From Vampirovibrio chlorellavorus (GTDB lineage Bacteria; Cyanobacteriota; Vampirovibrionia; Vampirovibrionales; Vampirovibrionaceae), in assembly GCA_001858525.1 (NCBI GenBank), contig LAPX01000008.1, positions 1-64,000 of the forward strand: 64,000 nucleotides of DNA, written 5' to 3'. Numbering within the stretch: the stretch's first letter is position 1; each line of letters begins with the position of its first letter. Position numbers and translations under genes: made by a program. The notes under the pieces were generated by a model, which saw nothing but the letters and a program-made list of their open reading frames with translations, was not told where the DNA came from and ran no database searches. Below, one piece after another: positions 1,390-8,699 of this stretch.

Positions 1390-2061
1390 CTACGAGGATT
1401 TGGCCACCACGTGAATAAAACGGGTGTAGTTCTCTTCGGCATCCTGCAAATTGTCTTCAATCACTTGCAGGTGATAGATTTTTGCCAGCACCTTGCTGCC
1501 CATCACCGCGGTGTTATCAGGCAAGCGATGCGTGGCCAGCGCTTCCGCCGTTTTGGCATTGTCCACCCATTCGCCCTCCCCAGAAGTTTGCTTGAGGTGC
1601 GGGTACTTCTTCTGCAAATTGCCTTGGCACTGGGCCAAAACCTGAGGGTGACACATGACCGTATCGATTTTGGAAAAATCCTGATCCGGGCGAATCATGA
1701 GGGCATGGGCAATTTTAATTTCAAATTCCTGAATAATCTCCACCGGATATTTTTCCAAGGCATCGGTGGTTTCTTCCACATAGCCGCCCACGGAATTGTA
1801 AATGGCGCACTGGCCCCGATCGATTTTTCCACTGACCACCGCTTCCATCACCCGATCGGAGGTGAACAGGTACTCAATAGCCTCGGTGGGCACAAACTGG
1901 TGACTGAGATAAGCCTGAATGGCCTCCTCGTTAAAGCTGCCTTCCCCGCCCTGAATGCCGAAAATAACCGGCTTTTGAGACACGGCGGCCAGAATCTCCG
2001 ACTGAGGAGTACTTATAGCATCTTGTTTAGAATCTTGGGTAGAATTTTGCAGGTCCATCAT
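1390..2061 (-). CDS. pheA: Prephenate dehydratase without ACT domain
   Basis: The protein converts prephenate to phenylpyruvate, the committed step to phenylalanine. The catalytic domain starts near residue 32 with FGIQGGEGSFNEEA, contains MCHPQVLAQC in the second lobe and ends with NYTRFIHVV. The TRF triplet is the conserved active-site signature. At 223 residues it holds only the dehydratase domain; the C-terminal ACT domain that gives Phe feedback in most homologues is missing. This fits with control by attenuation instead. It is the last gene of the aro operon, with 3 nt between the chorismate mutase stop and its ATG, so translation is probably coupled. The N-terminal 25 residues are polar and poorly conserved; MM at the start leaves one codon of ambiguity. 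Confidence 0.87.
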   Translation of the reverse strand: MMDLQNSTQDSKQDAISTPQSEILAAVSQKPVIFGIQGGEGSFNEEAIQAYLSHQFVPTEAIEYLFTSDRVMEAVVSGKIDRGQCAIYNSVGGYVEETTDALEKYPVEIIQEFEIKIAHALMIRPDQDFSKIDTVMCHPQVLAQCQGNLQKKYPHLKQTSGEGEWVDNAKTAEALATHRLPDNTAVMGSKVLAKIYHLQVIEDNLQDAEENYTRFIHVVAKSS

Positions 2062-2064
2062 CGC

Positions 2065-2373
2065 CTATTCGCTTTTGCTTTCTAAATGCAGACTGTAATC
2101 ATGAATCAAATGGTACAGGGCGTCCACAAATTCCGGGCAAAGCCCCAACTGTTGGGCCCGGGCTTTCTTGGCCTGCAGCACCTGTTGCCAGCGCTTCATA
2201 TCCAAAGGCTCCAAACCGCGGACCTTTTTATAACGCCCCACTTCATCCACCAACTGGGCCCGCTGAGCCAAGGCTTGCATGAGCTGTTCATCCAGCCGAT
2301 CAATCTGATCGCGCATTGATTGCAGTTCTGGACAATGGGTTTCTGGTTTTTGATCGTCTGTCATGGTCATCAT
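2065..2373 (-). CDS. Chorismate mutase, type II (AroQ class)
   Basis: This 102-residue all-helical protein rearranges chorismate to prephenate. The first helix carries MRDQIDRLDEQLMQALAQRA, the AroQ pattern with the active-site Arg. The second segment has VGRYKKVRGLEPLDMKRW with the conserved Lys and Arg. It is a stand-alone domain. The DAHP synthase of this operon belongs to a branch that in Bacteroidota is fused to exactly this kind of mutase, so the two may still form a complex. Several ATGs cluster at the start (2373, 2370, 2364). GGAGG lies at 2389-2393, rather far upstream for any of them. Confidence 0.88.
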   Translation of the reverse strand: MMTMTDDQKPETHCPELQSMRDQIDRLDEQLMQALAQRAQLVDEVGRYKKVRGLEPLDMKRWQQVLQAKKARAQQLGLCPEFVDALYHLIHDYSLHLESKSE

Positions 2374-2409: not shown

Positions 2410-3498
2410 CTAACCGTTCTGGGCCTTGTGCCGCAAATAGTGATCCATCATCACCAGTGCGGCCATGGATTCCACAATGGGAACCGCCCGGGGCAGCACA
2501 CAGGGATCGTGTCGGCCGGTGGCCTCTAACATAGTGTCTTCATGGGCCTGCGTCACGGTGTGCTGGGCCTTGCGAATGGTAGAAGTGGGCTTGACCGCCA
2601 CCCGAAAGTGAATGGTCTCTCCGCTGGAAAGTCCGCCCAACACCCCACCGGCGTGGTTGGTGCGAGTGCGCACCCGGCCGCTGTCATCCGTGTAAAAGGC
2701 ATCGTTGTGCTGACTGCCTCGCAGGGTTACCCCGGCAAATCCGGAGCCGATTTCAAAGCCTTTCACCGCGTTGATGCTGAGCATGGCCTTGCCCAAATCA
2801 GCGTGCAATTTATCAAAAACCGGCTCGCCCAGGCCCACTGGCACATTGCGAATGAGCCCCTTGAGAATGCCACCCACAGAGTCACCCTCATCCCGCACGG
2901 TTTCAATCAACCGGATCATGGCCTGGGCCTTCTCCGAGTCGGGACAGCGCACGATGTTTGATTCCACCATTTCAACGGTCACAGAATCGGGATCAATCTC
3001 CGTGCGAATGGTTTCCACTTGCTCTACATAGCACAGGCATTCCAGCCCCAGCGTTTGCTTCAGAAATTTCTTGGCAATGGCCCCGGCAGCCACCCGGCCA
3101 ATGGTTTCCCGGGCTGAGGATCGCCCCCCGCCTCGCCAATCCCGAATGCCGTATTTTTGCTGAAAGGTATAATCGGCATGACCGGGCCGAAAGACGGCTT
3201 TCAGGTTGTTGTAGTCATCGGATTTCTGGTCTTTATTAAAGGCCATCAGCATAATGGGTGTACCCGTGGTCACCCCGTCCAGAATGCCGGAAAACAGATG
3301 AATCTGGTCTTGCTCATTGCGGGGAGTGGTTATGCTGCTTTGCCCCGGACGGCGGCGATCCAGTTCCTTCTGGATTTCCTCCAGGGTGATGGGCAAACCA
3401 GGCGGGCAGCCATCAATGACCACGCCCACCCCACCTCCGTGGGATTCCCCGAAGGTGCTAATTCTGAATAACTGGCCCAAAGAACTTCCTGCGGTCAT
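2410..3498 (-). CDS. aroC: Chorismate synthase
   Basis: The enzyme eliminates phosphate from EPSP to give chorismate, using reduced FMN. The three family signatures are present: [18 protein letters not shown] near residue 18, [12 protein letters not shown] near residue 125, and [16 protein letters not shown] near residue 330. The length of 362 residues is normal. The gene lies 12 nt downstream of the aroA-aroK fusion and 36 nt upstream of chorismate mutase, so the operon runs from the shikimate pathway directly into the Phe branch. Confidence 0.96.
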
Positions 3499-3510: not shown

Positions 3511-5445
3511 CTACACCGGACTACATTGACGGGGAACGGGATGAAGATTGAGGCGACTGGCGATTTCATCGGCCACAGCCTGCGGGGTTTTTCCATCGGT
3601 TGAAATCTGAAGGTGAGCGGCTTGCCGGTACAGGGGCAAGCGCTGCTGGTACAACTGGCTGGCTTGTTCCAAATCTCTCAGCAGAGGGCGGTCCAGAGCA
3701 TGCTTTAAACGAGCCTGCACCGTATCCCAACTGGCATCGAGCCAAATCACGCTGGCCTGTTGGCCCAAGCACTGCATCAAAGACGCATTCATGACCACAC
3801 CGCCGCCGGTGGCAATGACCACCTGACTTTGCGGAGCCAACTGCTCGGCCAACTGGGCTTCCAATGCCCGAAAGTGAACCTCCCCGTCCGTATCAAAAAT
3901 CTCAGTGACACTCTGCCGACCGGACTGCTGCACAATCAAGGCATCCATATCCACCGCTTGCAGATGATGACGCTCGGCTAAAATGCGGGCCACCGCGCTT
4001 TTGCCAGCACCCATAAAGCCAATCAACACAATCTTTTCAGGGCTTTTTTCAAGACTTATAGTCTCAAGCACTTTTTCCGAGCTGACTGGCGAGACCGATT
4101 CGCAGCCGCCCACGCCCAAAGCACTTAAATCCTCCCAGAAGCCGGGGTAGGTTTTGTTAACCACCGCCGGGTCTTCAATTTCCAGACCATCCAACACGGC
4201 ACCGGCCACGGCAAAGGCCATTGCCATGCGATGATCCCCGTAAGTGGCAATGCGGGCCGCCTGGGGATTTCCGCCGTGAATAACCAATGCATCGACCTCA
4301 GCTTCAACGCGGATACCCATTTTTTGCAATTCCGTTTCCACGGCGGCAATGCGGTCTGTTTCCTTCACCCGCAGGGACTGCAAGCCTTCAATGCGGGTAA
4401 TGCCATCGGCAAAAGCGGCCAATACAGCCAGCGCCTGGGCCTGATCGGGGCAATCGCACATATCCACCAAAGCCAAGGGACGCACCCCGTGCCCTTCAAT
4501 AACCAGATCCCCGTCCACCACACGCACCTGGGTGCCCATTTGCTTCAGGATTTCAATAAAGCGCATATCCGCTTGCACCGATTGCAGGCTGAGGTTGCGA
4601 ATGGTAATCGCCGACCCAGTCAAGGTGGCAATGGCCGCAAAGTAAGCGGCACTGGAAGCGTCCGGCTCCACAACGTAAGACCGAGCCGTGTAGGTTTGCC
4701 CAGCGGGCACTGCAAAGCGTTGATAGTCCTCTTGATGGGTAGCGTTCACCCCGAAGGCCCGCATGATATCCACGGTCATATCCAGATACGGCTTAGATAC
4801 CGGGGCTTCCGGCAAATCAATAACCACTGGCTGGCCACTAGATGCGATCTCAGGCTCAATGAGAGGGGCGATCATCAACAGGGCCGAAATATACTGACTG
4901 CTGGTACTCCCAGACACCGACAGACGCGTAGCGCTTAACTGACTGGAATTAACCCGCACCGGCGGATAACCGTCCTGACCCAGGTAGTCGATCGACACTC
5001 CCAAGGCCCGCAGGGCATCCACCAAATCCCGCACCGGCCGACGATTCAGACCGTCATGCCCCAGCAAGGTCTGCCGACCCGGAATCACCGAGGATAAGGC
5101 CAGCAAAAAGCGCAGGGTCGCCGCCGATAAATTGGCATGCAAGGTGTAATCCGCATCGGCAATATGCTGCACTTGCCCGAAGACATCCAGATAGGCTTGC
5201 CCGTCCTGCTCGCCCCATTCGGTTCGGATGCCCAAGGCCTTCAGGCAATCCAGAATGGCTTGCCCGTCATCGCTGCGCAACACATTCCAGACTCGCACCG
5301 GCTGCCCATTGGGCTTTTCAGCCATGGCCGCCAGAATGAGCGCCCGAATGGTATAGCTTTTGGAACCGGGAATAGTGACAGTGGCTTGCACCGGCTGAGG
5401 CAAGGGGCTCAATCGAACGGCTCGATTGGCGGTTGAGGCAGTCAT
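3511..5445 (-). CDS. EPSP synthase - shikimate kinase fusion (AroA-AroK)
   Basis: The protein combines two steps of the shikimate pathway. Residues 1-450 are EPSP synthase, with PGSKSYTIRALILAA near residue 25, SGSTSSQYISAL, EPDASSAAYFAA, LRVKETDRIAAVE and GDHRMAMAFA. Residues about 472-640 are shikimate kinase, with Walker A GFMGAGKS, DMDALI and ATGGGVV. A Ser/Glu-rich linker of about 20 residues joins them. The kinase makes the substrate of the synthase, so the order product-enzyme first is the same as in the fungal AROM protein. The EPSP synthase NAGT-type motif reads LSAATLRF here. The start overlaps the DAHP synthase stop by 4 nt (ATGA). Confidence 0.94.
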   Translation of the reverse strand: MTASTANRAVRLSPLPQPVQATVTIPGSKSYTIRALILAAMAEKPNGQPVRVWNVLRSDDGQAILDCLKALGIRTEWGEQDGQAYLDVFGQVQHIADADYTLHANLSAATLRFLLALSSVIPGRQTLLGHDGLNRRPVRDLVDALRALGVSIDYLGQDGYPPVRVNSSQLSATRLSVSGSTSSQYISALLMIAPLIEPEIASSGQPVVIDLPEAPVSKPYLDMTVDIMRAFGVNATHQEDYQRFAVPAGQTYTARSYVVEPDASSAAYFAAIATLTGSAITIRNLSLQSVQADMRFIEILKQMGTQVRVVDGDLVIEGHGVRPLALVDMCDCPDQAQALAVLAAFADGITRIEGLQSLRVKETDRIAAVETELQKMGIRVEAEVDALVIHGGNPQAARIATYGDHRMAMAFAVAGAVLDGLEIEDPAVVNKTYPGFWEDLSALGVGGCESVSPVSSEKVLETISLEKSPEKIVLIGFMGAGKSAVARILAERHHLQAVDMDALIVQQSGRQSVTEIFDTDGEVHFRALEAQLAEQLAPQSQVVIATGGGVVMNASLMQCLGQQASVIWLDASWDTVQARLKHALDRPLLRDLEQASQLYQQRLPLYRQAAHLQISTDGKTPQAVADEIASRLNLHPVPRQCSPV

Positions 5446-6269
5446 GCGAGCAGCGCTTCCTTTTGCTGAACAGCACGAGCGGCATCCAGCTTGCCCATCA
5501 GGGCGGTCAACTCTTCCCAGGTGATTTGCTGGCTGGCATCCGTCCAGGCAAAGCGGGGGTTGGGATGCACTTCAATGACCATACCATCGTAGTTGTATTC
5601 TACGGTGTCCATAGCCACTTCTTCCAGCTTGTCCACAGCGCCCGCCACGTGGGAAATATCCAACAACATGGGCAGACCGGTTTTTTCCCGAATGCGCATG
5701 GCCATTTCAGAATCGGCCACGTTGCGCAGGCCGCTGGGGTTGGGGTGGTGCACATCCGGGGTGAAGCCACGGTGGCAGAGAATGAGGTTTTCCATCTTCA
5801 TGCCGCCTTCCAGGGCGTGATCCACAATGCCTTCCCAGTGAGATTCGGAATGCCAGGGCTGGTTCTTTAGCATCAGCTTGACCCGGCTATCCTGGGCGGC
5901 CACCCGGGCGATTTCCTGTTGCACGTAGTGGTTTTGATTGCGGGCCCCAATCCACAGCAACAGTTCACCGTTTTTTTGCAAGGAGGGCAACACCCCATCC
6001 ATGACGGACTGGGCCTGAGAGGGTACCAGAATTTCTGTGCCGGGGTTCAGACCCATTTGGGCGGCTTCGGCCAGTAATTCAATGCCATCTTCCTTCAGGC
6101 CATCGAAACCGGGCTTGGTGCGGGGTTTCCACAGACTCACCCGAACGTAATCCACGCCGTGCTGCTTGGCCCGTTCCAGAGAAAACATGATTTGCTCGCG
6201 GCTTTCGGCGGCACAGGGGCCAGCGACCAGGATATTACGGGCCGGTTGGTGATGGTGAGTCGGACTCAT
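5442..6269 (-). CDS. aroF: 3-deoxy-7-phosphoheptulonate (DAHP) synthase
   Basis: It catalyses condensation of PEP with erythrose 4-phosphate, entry to the shikimate pathway. Motifs include VAGPCAAES at the start, SLWKPRTKPGFDG, LLWIGARN, LKNQPW, HRGF, DISHVAG and YNYDGMVIEVH. The LKNQ...HRGF...NYDGMVIE combination resembles the class I branch fused to chorismate mutase in Bacteroidota rather than the LLKRG/CERG type. I place the start at ATG 6269 (275 residues), with AAGGAG about 12 nt upstream. Longer in-frame extensions would run through the attenuator terminator and are rejected. It is the first structural gene of the operon and lies directly behind the attenuator. Confidence 0.9.
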   Translation of the reverse strand: MSPTHHHQPARNILVAGPCAAESREQIMFSLERAKQHGVDYVRVSLWKPRTKPGFDGLKEDGIELLAEAAQMGLNPGTEILVPSQAQSVMDGVLPSLQKNGELLLWIGARNQNHYVQQEIARVAAQDSRVKLMLKNQPWHSESHWEGIVDHALEGGMKMENLILCHRGFTPDVHHPNPSGLRNVADSEMAMRIREKTGLPMLLDISHVAGAVDKLEEVAMDTVEYNYDGMVIEVHPNPRFAWTDASQQITWEELTALMGKLDAARAVQQKEALLA

Positions 6270-6319
6270 GGTGATGGTTGCTCCTTTAACTGATAATTGC
6301 CTAGGTGATGCCTGTAAAC

Positions 6320-6351
6320 GAAAACAGCCCCCGAAGGTTCGGGAGCTGTTT
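6320..6351 (-). terminator. Attenuator terminator of the aro operon
   Basis: On the minus strand, AAACAGCTCCCGAA (6351-6338) pairs with TTCGGGGGCTGTTT (6335-6322), including one G-U pair, around a 2-nt gap that opens to a small loop. The sequence TTTTCGTTT follows. It lies between the leader peptide stop (6385) and the DAHP synthase start (6269), where an attenuator terminator should be. Confidence 0.9.
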
Positions 6352-6384
6352 GTCAATCGGTAAACTTGCTTTAGCGGTTACACG

Positions 6385-6459
6385 TCAACAAACGACTCCC
6401 ACGGGGAAGCCGTAAAAATAAAAGAAATAAAAGCTATTTTGCCAACGTGTATTTTTCAT
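6385..6459 (-). CDS. Aromatic-rich leader peptide (24 aa) of the aro operon
   Basis: ATG at 6459 opens a 24-codon frame ending with TGA at 6385-6387. It starts MKNTRWQNS and residues 10-18 read FYFFYFYGF. Five Phe, three Tyr and one Trp in 24 residues cannot plausibly be chance next to a terminator and an aromatic biosynthesis operon. It resembles the pheA leader peptide of enterobacteria in size and composition, but with Tyr added. No Shine-Dalgarno sequence precedes the ATG, and a candidate -10 ends only 9 nt upstream, so the leader may be translated from a leaderless or nearly leaderless transcript. Confidence 0.86.
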   Translation of the reverse strand: MKNTRWQNSFYFFYFYGFPVGVVC

Positions 6460-6468
6460 AGTGTTTAC

Positions 6469-6499
6469 AGTTTAGCTTATAAGGGGGTCACTTTGTCAA
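6469..6499 (-). promoter_or_regulatory. Candidate aro operon promoter
   Basis: On the minus strand a perfect -35 TTGACA (6499-6494) is followed after 19 nt by TAAACT (6474-6469). TATAAG at 6480-6475 is a better -10 but has no good -35 at normal spacing. Either way transcription would start within about 10 nt of the leader peptide ATG at 6459. Confidence 0.55.
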
Positions 6500-6537
6500 G
6501 GGATTTGATATCCTCTCGCATTACTCTGTTACATTTA

Positions 6538-6669
6538 AAAAGCAGAGTATTCCCCGCCATCCCGTTTATAACGGTTTGAGTACAGCGTGTTCACAGTAAA
6601 AACAAACGCAAAGGAGCTTGGCGCTGCACGCAGTTTTATAAATGGGATGGCGGGGAACACTCTGCTTTT
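6538..6669. repeat. Long inverted repeat with conserved core, copy A
   Basis: Arms of 34 nt (6538-6571 and 6636-6669) match at all but two positions and enclose 64 nt. The apical part and loop contain GTTTATAACGG and TTTGAGTACAGCG, shared with copies B (22711-22792) and C (62536-62683). CTGCACGCAG (6624-6633) near the right arm is shared with copy C only. The outer arm sequence (GCAGAGT...CCCCGCCATCCC) is not found in the other copies. It lies just upstream of the aro promoter and about 160 nt before the Maf-type gene. Confidence 0.88.
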
Positions 6670-6830
6670 CTAAATCATAAAGAGACACGCAAACAAACAT
6701 TAAACACTCCTTTCCCCATCACTGAAATGGCCCAAACAACGGAACTCCTCCACCCACAGGAGGAGATTTCCCGAGAGATAGCCCACAATGAAGCCAAAGT
6801 CTCTCACAACATCAGGGAAAGGACGTTCGC

Positions 6831-8699
6831 ATGTTCTGGAAGAAAAACACCCAGGCACTCCTCAAGCATCATCCCCATCACGAAATCATCCTGAAAAAAC
6901 TGAGGAACGTCGTTACCCCTGAAGATTTAAATCCCTACGAAACCCAGGAAGGCGATATCGGCATTGTTTTCAACGGGCTACCTTTGCACTCTGCCAGAGG
7001 AGCCAAACTGGAAGCCCAGCAGGAAGTCAAAACCAACTGTCGTCCAGCGCTGGATAGAACTCATCTCATTCTGGGACTGGGCCTGGGCTATTTGCTGGAG
7101 GAAACCTGCAAACGGTCCCCCGGCCCCATTGTGGTCTATGAGCCTCACCTGCCCCTCTTGAAGTTTGTGCTGGAAAATGTGGATCTCTCCGATTATTTCA
7201 GTCAACGCCGGGTCCGCCTGGTCACTGACATTCCCACCCTGCTAGAAATCATTACCCCGTTGCTGGTTTGCTTTGAACCCATTGATTTTCTCTCCAGCGG
7301 AAGCTACGCCTTGCTGTTACAAAACCAGATGGGCGAATTAATGGGCAAACTGGCCAACCTGATTGACGATCGCAAGCGGGATTACCGCACCGCCCGCTAC
7401 TTCCACAACCAATGGATCAAACAGTTCTTTGAAAACCTACCACATGTGGGCGATTGCTTCGATATGACCAACCTTCAGGGCAAGGGCAAAGGCAAACCGG
7501 CCCTTGTCATCAGCCGGGGCCCCTCGCTGGATGCGGCCCTGCCCGCCATCAAGCAATTGGAAAATCAGGCCGTATTGGTAGCCGTGGGGGGCGCCCTGCA
7601 TCACCTGTACAAATACGGCATCACCCCGGATTTTGCCACTTTTCTGGATTCCCGAGGCATGAAAGAGCAATTGCACGGCCTGCCAGAGAGCTATTTAAAA
7701 CAAATCACCTTCCTGATGAGCAACTTTACCCAGCCCATTTGCTACGAACAGGACGTGGCGGCCAAGGTGCGCTTCACCCTGCAAAGTGACCGGCCCTATG
7801 CCGACTGGCTCTCCAAGCAGGAGCCCCGAATTCAGAACTATCGCCTGCTGGATGGCTGCGGAACCGTCTCCCACATTGCCCTGCAAACGGCCATTCTCAT
7901 GGATTGCGACCCGGTGGTGCTCATCGGCCAGGACTTGGCCTTCCCCAACAACCAGGTCTACGCCGGTGGCGAAGAACTGGAAACCAACGGCAAAGGGGTT
8001 ATGACCCTCAAAAAGCGGGAAAACCTGTTTACCGGCCCCTCCCAAATGGCCACCGTGGAAGGCCAGAACGGAGAGACCCTGCAAAGTCTGGCCTCCTTCA
8101 AAGGCTTTATCCGATTCTTCGAAAAAACGGCCACCACCAACCAGCAGAAAACCCGCCCCCAGAAGCTGTACAACGCTTCCTTGGGCGGTGCCAAAATCAA
8201 CGGCTACGAACTGCGGGGCATGGACACCTTCATCGGGGAGTGGGCAGACTTCCGCACCCCGGATTGGCTGAGTAAACAGCTCTCCTTCCCGGAAGGGTAT
8301 CGTAAGAAAACGCTGGAGAAGCTGCAAAGCAAGCTGCGCAAGCTCAAATCAGAGCTGTATGAGTGCGTGGCCCTGCTGGATCAGTTGATCATTGAAGGGG
8401 TGGACACGCCCAACAATCCGGAACTCAATCGCTTTATCGCCAACCACTACCTGATTAGCCACTTTCTGGTGCTGGACATGATTGAAACCCGCCAGCGCTA
8501 CAACCCAGCGGCGGAAACCCCGGAAGAAATCCAGAAAAACAGGGATGGTATGCGGGAAGGCTACAAGAAAAACCGGGCTTTGCTGCATGATGACATTCTG
8601 CCCTGGGTGATTCAATCTGAAACGGAGGTTATCGCTTTGCTCCACGACCAAAAGGCCCCGGCCACAATGGAAATCCAGGCGGAATCTACCGTTCCTTGA
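6831..8699 (+). CDS. Motility accessory factor (Maf)-type glycosyltransferase, DUF115/MptE-like
   Basis: This 622-residue protein has the architecture of Maf proteins that attach nonulosonic acids to flagellin. An N-terminal region includes HLILGLGLGYLLEE and VVYEPHLPLLKF. The central MAF_flag10/DUF115 domain has ALVISRGPSLDAALP, GITPDFATFLDSR, and GTVSHIALQTA followed by VVLIGQDLAF. The C-terminus is helical. The related archaeal MptE is a pterin diphosphokinase, but length and domain order fit the flagellar group. No flagellin gene is in the window; a possible FliK-like gene at 62678 is consistent with a flagellated cell. AGGA precedes the start by 8-10 nt. It stands alone, with copy A of the inverted repeat upstream. 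Confidence 0.78.
   Translation: MFWKKNTQALLKHHPHHEIILKKLRNVVTPEDLNPYETQEGDIGIVFNGLPLHSARGAKLEAQQEVKTNCRPALDRTHLILGLGLGYLLEETCKRSPGPIVVYEPHLPLLKFVLENVDLSDYFSQRRVRLVTDIPTLLEIITPLLVCFEPIDFLSSGSYALLLQNQMGELMGKLANLIDDRKRDYRTARYFHNQWIKQFFENLPHVGDCFDMTNLQGKGKGKPALVISRGPSLDAALPAIKQLENQAVLVAVGGALHHLYKYGITPDFATFLDSRGMKEQLHGLPESYLKQITFLMSNFTQPICYEQDVAAKVRFTLQSDRPYADWLSKQEPRIQNYRLLDGCGTVSHIALQTAILMDCDPVVLIGQDLAFPNNQVYAGGEELETNGKGVMTLKKRENLFTGPSQMATVEGQNGETLQSLASFKGFIRFFEKTATTNQQKTRPQKLYNASLGGAKINGYELRGMDTFIGEWADFRTPDWLSKQLSFPEGYRKKTLEKLQSKLRKLKSELYECVALLDQLIIEGVDTPNNPELNRFIANHYLISHFLVLDMIETRQRYNPAAETPEEIQKNRDGMREGYKKNRALLHDDILPWVIQSETEVIALLHDQKAPATMEIQAESTVP

Follow-up and report, generated by a model that had tools for sequence, protein, structure and literature searches.

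A conserved candidate Phe/Tyr leader-peptide attenuator upstream of the aroF-to-pheA operon in a Vampirovibrio lineage

The window, i.e. the whole stretch of 64,000 nucleotides analysed here, carries a Phe-pathway operon on its minus strand. In the order of transcription, a TTGACA hexamer, a TAAACT hexamer, a short leader reading frame and a terminator are followed by a Shine-Dalgarno sequence (AAAGGAG, 6281..6287) and five genes. These genes encode a DAHP synthase consisting of the core domain only (aroF; 5442..6269, 275 aa), an EPSP synthase-shikimate kinase fusion (aroA-aroK; 3511..5445), chorismate synthase (aroC; 2410..3498), a type II chorismate mutase (2065..2373) and a prephenate dehydratase without an ACT domain (1390..2061, 223 aa). 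An earlier sequence-only reading of this DNA had described a five-gene operon with a fusion gene and an ACT-less prephenate dehydratase in a non-proteobacterial lineage. The gene annotation agreed with the first of these points and no ACT domain was detected in the dehydratase at E ≤ 1; an ACT domain was present in both sister-genus prephenate dehydratases scanned (n = 2). The lineage was also as proposed: the genome (3.03 Mb) has Vampirovibrio MAGs as its nearest named kin by DAHP synthase and, judged from this protein, appears to belong with the Vampirovibrio lineage of the class Vampirovibrionia (Melainabacteria). Vampirovibrio is a predatory, non-photosynthetic relative of the cyanobacteria. 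The lack of an ACT domain fits transcriptional control of the operon and, as the DAHP synthase is also a bare core, such control may replace feedback control of the operon's enzymes. The separate chorismate mutase could nevertheless bind the DAHP synthase and so regulate it.

Outside the genus, the closest relatives of the Vampirovibrio DAHP synthase were found in CPR bacteria (Roizmanbacteria, 59%; Peribacteria, 53%), with which the window-type enzyme also grouped in a tree. As the Roizmanbacteria operon (L039) has an aroA-aroK fusion as well, gene exchange between Vampirovibrio and CPR lineages is likely. The Roizmanbacteria contig stops 18 nt before the DAHP synthase gene. The Peribacteria gene has no leader; at 4017-5738 of the Candidatus Peribacteria locus L040, trpA continues in frame into the DAHP synthase. 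A second frame at this junction resembles a helix-turn-helix protein of the Trp-repressor type.

Upstream of the leader frame, the -35-like hexamer TTGACA (6494..6499, minus strand) was invariant in the four operon-bearing genomes of the genus, and the -10-like hexamer (TAAACT, 6469..6474) read TAAACT, TAAACT, TAAAGT and TATGGT across these species. Both the 19-nt spacer and the 9-nt distance from the last base of the -10 hexamer to the leader ATG were constant in all four; a consensus promoter scan allowing spacers of 16–18 nt missed the site because of the longer spacer. The 5' untranslated region of the leader is thus predicted from the hexamer positions to be only a few nucleotides long. 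None of the four species has a Shine-Dalgarno sequence before the leader ATG, in agreement with the sequence-only reading, and translation would therefore need a leaderless or near-leaderless mode. Just upstream of the promoter, positions 6538-6669 of the window hold a palindrome with 34-nt arms that are 94% complementary and lie 64 nt apart. The palindrome is missing at this place in genome G004, and partly similar sequences occur elsewhere in the genome (L004-L006); it looks like a MITE-type insertion.

The leader frame itself (MKNTRWQNSFYFFYFYGFPVGVVC; 6385..6459, minus strand) runs for 24 codons from ATG to TGA, the stop codon occupying 6387-6385, and is conserved in G004, G003 and G001. 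Nine residues of the peptide are aromatic and eight of these sit in FYFFYFYGF; the coordinates, length and composition given in the sequence-only reading were all correct. The putative control codons are F10-Y16 (FYFFYFY, 6412..6432), with F18 next. Seven consecutive Phe/Tyr codons (TWY ×7) occurred once in the window and in none of 100 shuffles. Across the 3.03-Mb genome the only such run was at the leader and the reversed control pattern occurred twice; taken alone, the run is only mildly rare within the genome. Tryptophan had also been proposed as a sensed amino acid, a suggestion that failed on comparison: two of the four species have Pro or Thr in place of W6. As this residue is not conserved, the sensor is best described from the alignment as Phe/Tyr rather than Phe+Tyr+Trp.

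Between the leader and aroF lies an intrinsic terminator hairpin (helix 3:4; 6322..6351, minus strand), conserved in the four species, with a 13-bp stem (6351-6339/6334-6322) followed by a short T-run, TTTTCGTTT, and then CGTTT. A terminator had been placed at 6320-6351 before the first structural gene, and the refined limits are 6351-6322. The T-run behind the hairpin is short (TTTTC), which counts against the attenuator reading. Three further segments of the leader RNA have alternative partners. Segment 2 (GGGAGUCGUUUGUUGACGUGUAA; 6378..6400) overlaps the last codons and the stop of the leader, is nearly invariant in four species and can pair either with segments 1a (UACACGUUGGCAA; 6439..6451) and 1b (ACGGCUUCC; 6405..6413), the latter matching its 5' part, or with segment 3 (6341..6364), the 3' strand of the antiterminator, whose own 3' part is the 5' arm of the terminator. 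The complementarity between the leader and the terminator noted previously was present, 6400-6389 (GGGAGTCGTTTG) matching CAAACAGCTCCC of the 5' arm, but its description as two 5-bp blocks was too modest: the antiterminator (2:3) extends to ~21 bp, with a stability of -23.5 kcal/mol in the window and of -19 to -24 kcal/mol across the four species.

Helices 1:2, 2:3 and 3:4 are mutually exclusive and were found in all four operon-bearing genomes of the genus. The minimum free energy fold consisted of 1:2 (13 + 9 bp) plus the 13-bp terminator in every species, with small differences. Folding of the leader RNA gave a z-score of -5.0, equalled or bettered by none of 200 shuffles. Pairing was retained in 93.5% of alignment cells for 1:2 and 90.1% for 2:3, as compared to 38–49% and 34–51%, respectively, when the partners were slid by 1–3 columns. 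No compensatory base-pair changes were observed in 1:2 or 2:3 among these four genomes, as the segments are nearly invariant; the evidence for the helices within the genus is conservation and not covariation.

The operon was found in four of five genomes of the genus (G000, G004, G003 and G001), each with the whole leader unit, whilst operon and leader were both absent from G002, an assembly that is 76% complete. The upstream sequence around this unit is otherwise divergent among the four genomes. The leader peptide is MKNTRWQNSFYFFYFYGFPVGVVC in two of them, MNTRPQQSFYFFYFYGFRQGDVC in one and MNTRTQQYFSFFYYWLPRESFVDV in G001, where small deletions with a net loss of 4 nt shift the frame through segment 2 so that a different stop codon is used. 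The aromatic run is retained in G001 and the RNA of segment 2 (GGGAGTCGTTTGTTGACGTGTAA) is unchanged. As the frame differs while the RNA stays the same, selection at segment 2 appears to act on the RNA, separately from the peptide tail. A covariance model built from the unit (R1) recovered the four unit-bearing members in a search of the genus; over 386 genomes of the phylum it gave a strong match only in G000 (166 bits; noise ≤42), and no sequence homologue of the unit was found beyond the genus with this model. The sequence-only reading had named a lack of conservation of the leader frame or of the alternative pairing in relatives as grounds for abandoning attenuation; this comparison was made and the claim survived it in four of four genomes.

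The window element is thus very probably a ribosome-mediated transcription attenuator of the aroF-aroAK-aroC-CM-pheA operon, as had been proposed, a reading supported by conservation of leader, promoter, antiterminator and terminator in the four genomes. The locus combines the features of the attenuator class: a run of end-product codons, a terminator ahead of the gene, an exclusive antiterminator and a 1:2 pairing. The presence and conservation of these parts, their exclusive pairings and the correct positions of the codons are direct observations. The accompanying events can be laid out from the sequence as a model. Transcription would start a few nucleotides ahead of the leader AUG. With an ample supply of charged tRNA-Phe and tRNA-Tyr, the ribosome would reach the leader stop and cover segment 2; segment 3 would then be available for the terminator, and transcription would end before aroF. 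When either charged tRNA is scarce, the ribosome would stall in FYFFYFY and cover segment 1 only; the exposed segment 2 would pair with segment 3 as the antiterminator and the operon would be transcribed. In the event of no translation, 1:2 plus the terminator would be the most stable arrangement, making off the default state. The start site, ribosome stalling, termination and physiological response are thus predictions of this model.

Stall positions were evaluated with a ribosome model that masks the mRNA to 12 nt past the first base of the A-site codon, a value assumed from known footprints. In this model the antiterminator remained intact for stalls through Y16 (G000 and G004), Y15 (G003) and Y14 (G001), with -19 to -24 kcal/mol or better in the four species for every stall as far as the run's last F/Y codons. 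The GGGAG:CUCCC half of the antiterminator was gone one to two codons beyond those stalls, and with the ribosome at the stop codon only -1.5 to 0 kcal/mol was left in the four species. Since the modelled antiterminator collapses one to two codons later, the F/Y run would end where stalling stops helping. Equilibrium folding alone was also considered as a predictor of the switch and was rejected in favour of a co-transcriptional view, the terminator being favoured even at several stall positions. As the terminator usually wins at equilibrium, the switch would have to be kinetic, with the antiterminator forming before the 3' arm of the terminator is transcribed. This order of events is a feature of known attenuators.

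Comparable units were present elsewhere in the class. DAHP synthases of other families are ~31% identical to that of the window and lie on separate branches of the tree, and many of these non-orthologous genes are preceded by an aromatic leader and a terminator (e.g. MNRNTNTYFYFYFFSRACRSCED in G007, MKRFYYFSFYPNALRC in G005 and MQKPNFSFFWFYFNPQGSD in G037). No such combination was found at 30 photosynthetic-cyanobacterial loci or before the DAHP synthases examined in families f6, f7 and f9. Among 1,700 shuffles of 17 upstream regions, an aromatic-rich short frame arose in 12 and one with a terminator after it in none. Other pathways of the genus showed the same arrangement: a WWW leader and terminator precede trpE in five of five genomes (L093-L097), and MNILNSVVIILVVILSGPAGGI or a similar Ile/Val/Leu leader (VVIILVVIL) with a terminator precedes ilvB in three of five (L201, L204 and L205). 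No leader plus terminator was found for leuA in the genus.

The amino acid run of the leader hence tracks the downstream gene (FY for aroF, W for trpE and ILV for ilvB), an observation that bears on whether the terminator could instead be governed by a tRNA- or ligand-sensing RNA, i.e. a T-box or riboswitch, with the short frame incidental. Such an RNA would occupy the same location and use the same kind of terminator/antiterminator pair, and T-boxes do this job in Firmicutes. This explanation is nevertheless highly improbable: besides the match between leader and gene, the conservation of the F/Y run and its correct phasing relative to segment 2 speak against it, and no T-box or riboswitch family matched 5900-7000 even at E ≤ 5.

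Pairing between leader tails and terminators was compared across 30 units, for which the terminators had been picked irrespective of any pairing with the leader tail. Tails paired with their own terminator arm at a mean of -19.9 kcal/mol versus -12.8 kcal/mol with the arms of other groups, and the own-arm sum was matched by none of 20,000 permutations. Little or no preference for the own arm was seen clearly for L093, L180 and unit 2 of L030, and also for L029 and L016. A functional microprotein, with the hairpin acting only as a terminator or RNA-stability element, would account for the hydrophobic aromatic peptide kept in G000, G004 and G003, but has very little probability given this co-variation of tails and arms across the class and the G001 peptide, whose C-terminal third is read in another frame from identical RNA.

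In family f4 (L015, L119, L030 and L031), a single DAHP synthase gene is preceded by two full leader/terminator units in series, located between ~460 and 30 nt ahead of the gene or DAHP synthase match. In L015 these are MTFTGFYYWFKEVHLA plus a terminator and then MSKQSFYNGFYWYARAGPG plus a terminator; most first units in the family share an 'EVH'-type tail and a ACCGCAGA..TCTGCGGT terminator. These serial aromatic units are the most unusual observation of the study. In G010, DAHP synthase copies differ in their leaders, one near trpE being Trp-rich (QWTWWRLQ..., L016) and another Phe/Tyr-rich (NYFYYFFYP, L112), which reads as isozyme-specific attenuation. For the class as a whole, we lean slightly towards a picture in which aromatic (and Ile/Val) synthesis has long been under leader-peptide attenuation as a main form of control throughout Vampirovibrionia. 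In this picture, attenuation was retained or regained on replacement of the Vampirovibrio DAHP synthase gene by a CPR-like one, and the serial Phe/Tyr(/Trp) units of f4 serve as a two-step gate.

Leader-peptide attenuation is classically known from E. coli, and the mechanism proposed for the window element is classical. No publication on attenuation in Melainabacteria was found in the literature searched. A 2010 survey recorded leader-peptide systems as earlier known only in Proteobacteria and Actinobacteria and added the Firmicutes (PMC2965389). A conserved switch family in a non-photosynthetic class that is sister to the cyanobacteria would widen this range, with the same attenuation logic placed on non-orthologous genes, and the attenuators give predicted inputs (Phe/Tyr, Trp and Ile/Val) in organisms whose cultivation is difficult. 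According to the genome paper of V. chlorellavorus (PMC4451040), 15 amino acids can be made, Phe and Tyr not among them; another part of the paper credits the organism with almost every gene of a set covering, among others, Phe and Tyr synthesis. Conservation of an aroF-to-pheA operon under putative Phe/Tyr control is an argument for Vampirovibrio making use of Phe synthesis.

Amongst known systems, the enterobacterial pheA attenuator (Rfam RF01859) shares with the window element a Phe-rich leader frame, the 1:2, 2:3 and 3:4 helices and a terminator before a Phe-pathway gene. The window element differs in its mixed Phe and Tyr codons, a stop inside segment 2, the lack of a Shine-Dalgarno sequence, its phylum and its position before aroF of a five-gene operon. 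It scored 26.8 bits, below the gathering cut-off of 55, and on this score is not a member of the Rfam family. A true homologue of the gammaproteobacterial element, acquired by horizontal transfer, could explain why the match is the only one in the genome and aligns over the full length of the Rfam Phe_leader model with similar UUUUUAC..UUCCCC..GGGAG.CGUUU blocks, but such an origin is most unlikely in view of this low score, of spurious matches of up to 43 bits in AT-rich genomes of the class and of a downstream gene that is not gammaproteobacterial and has its nearest kin in the CPR. When the Phe_leader model was applied to 289 genomes of the class, AT-rich genomes yielded low-scoring hits by the hundred, all of which (≤43 bits) fell short of the cut-off, and the model was uninformative outside the genus.

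For the attenuator reading, further parallels are the hisS/hisZ leader peptides of bacilli (PMC2965389), which likewise lie outside Proteobacteria and Actinobacteria but use His codons and belong to Firmicutes, and the Salmonella mgtCBR leader, which holds two attenuators and has been called a singular tandem example (PMC3641672). The latter is comparable to the serial units of f4, not to the window element, and responds to ATP and proline signals, whereas f4 has two complete aromatic units. The Sinorhizobium meliloti trpL attenuator mRNA is leaderless and begins at the AUG (PMC7298713), which makes a near-leaderless start of the window leader plausible by analogy; this alphaproteobacterial system differs in having Trp codons. 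Among the works referenced in PMC4046766 is one on a C. glutamicum ilvBNC leader peptide that forms without a ribosome binding site. The sequence-only reading had considered the arrangement unusual, a view that has to be given up in part, as a DAHP synthase gene with a Phe/Tyr leader is known from C. glutamicum (aroF), where a short Phe-Tyr-Phe leader peptide was assigned to attenuation (PMC4046766). Both systems place a Phe/Tyr leader before a DAHP synthase; that of C. glutamicum is actinobacterial, has three aromatic residues as compared to eight and was described for a single gene. It is the nearest functional precedent for the window element.
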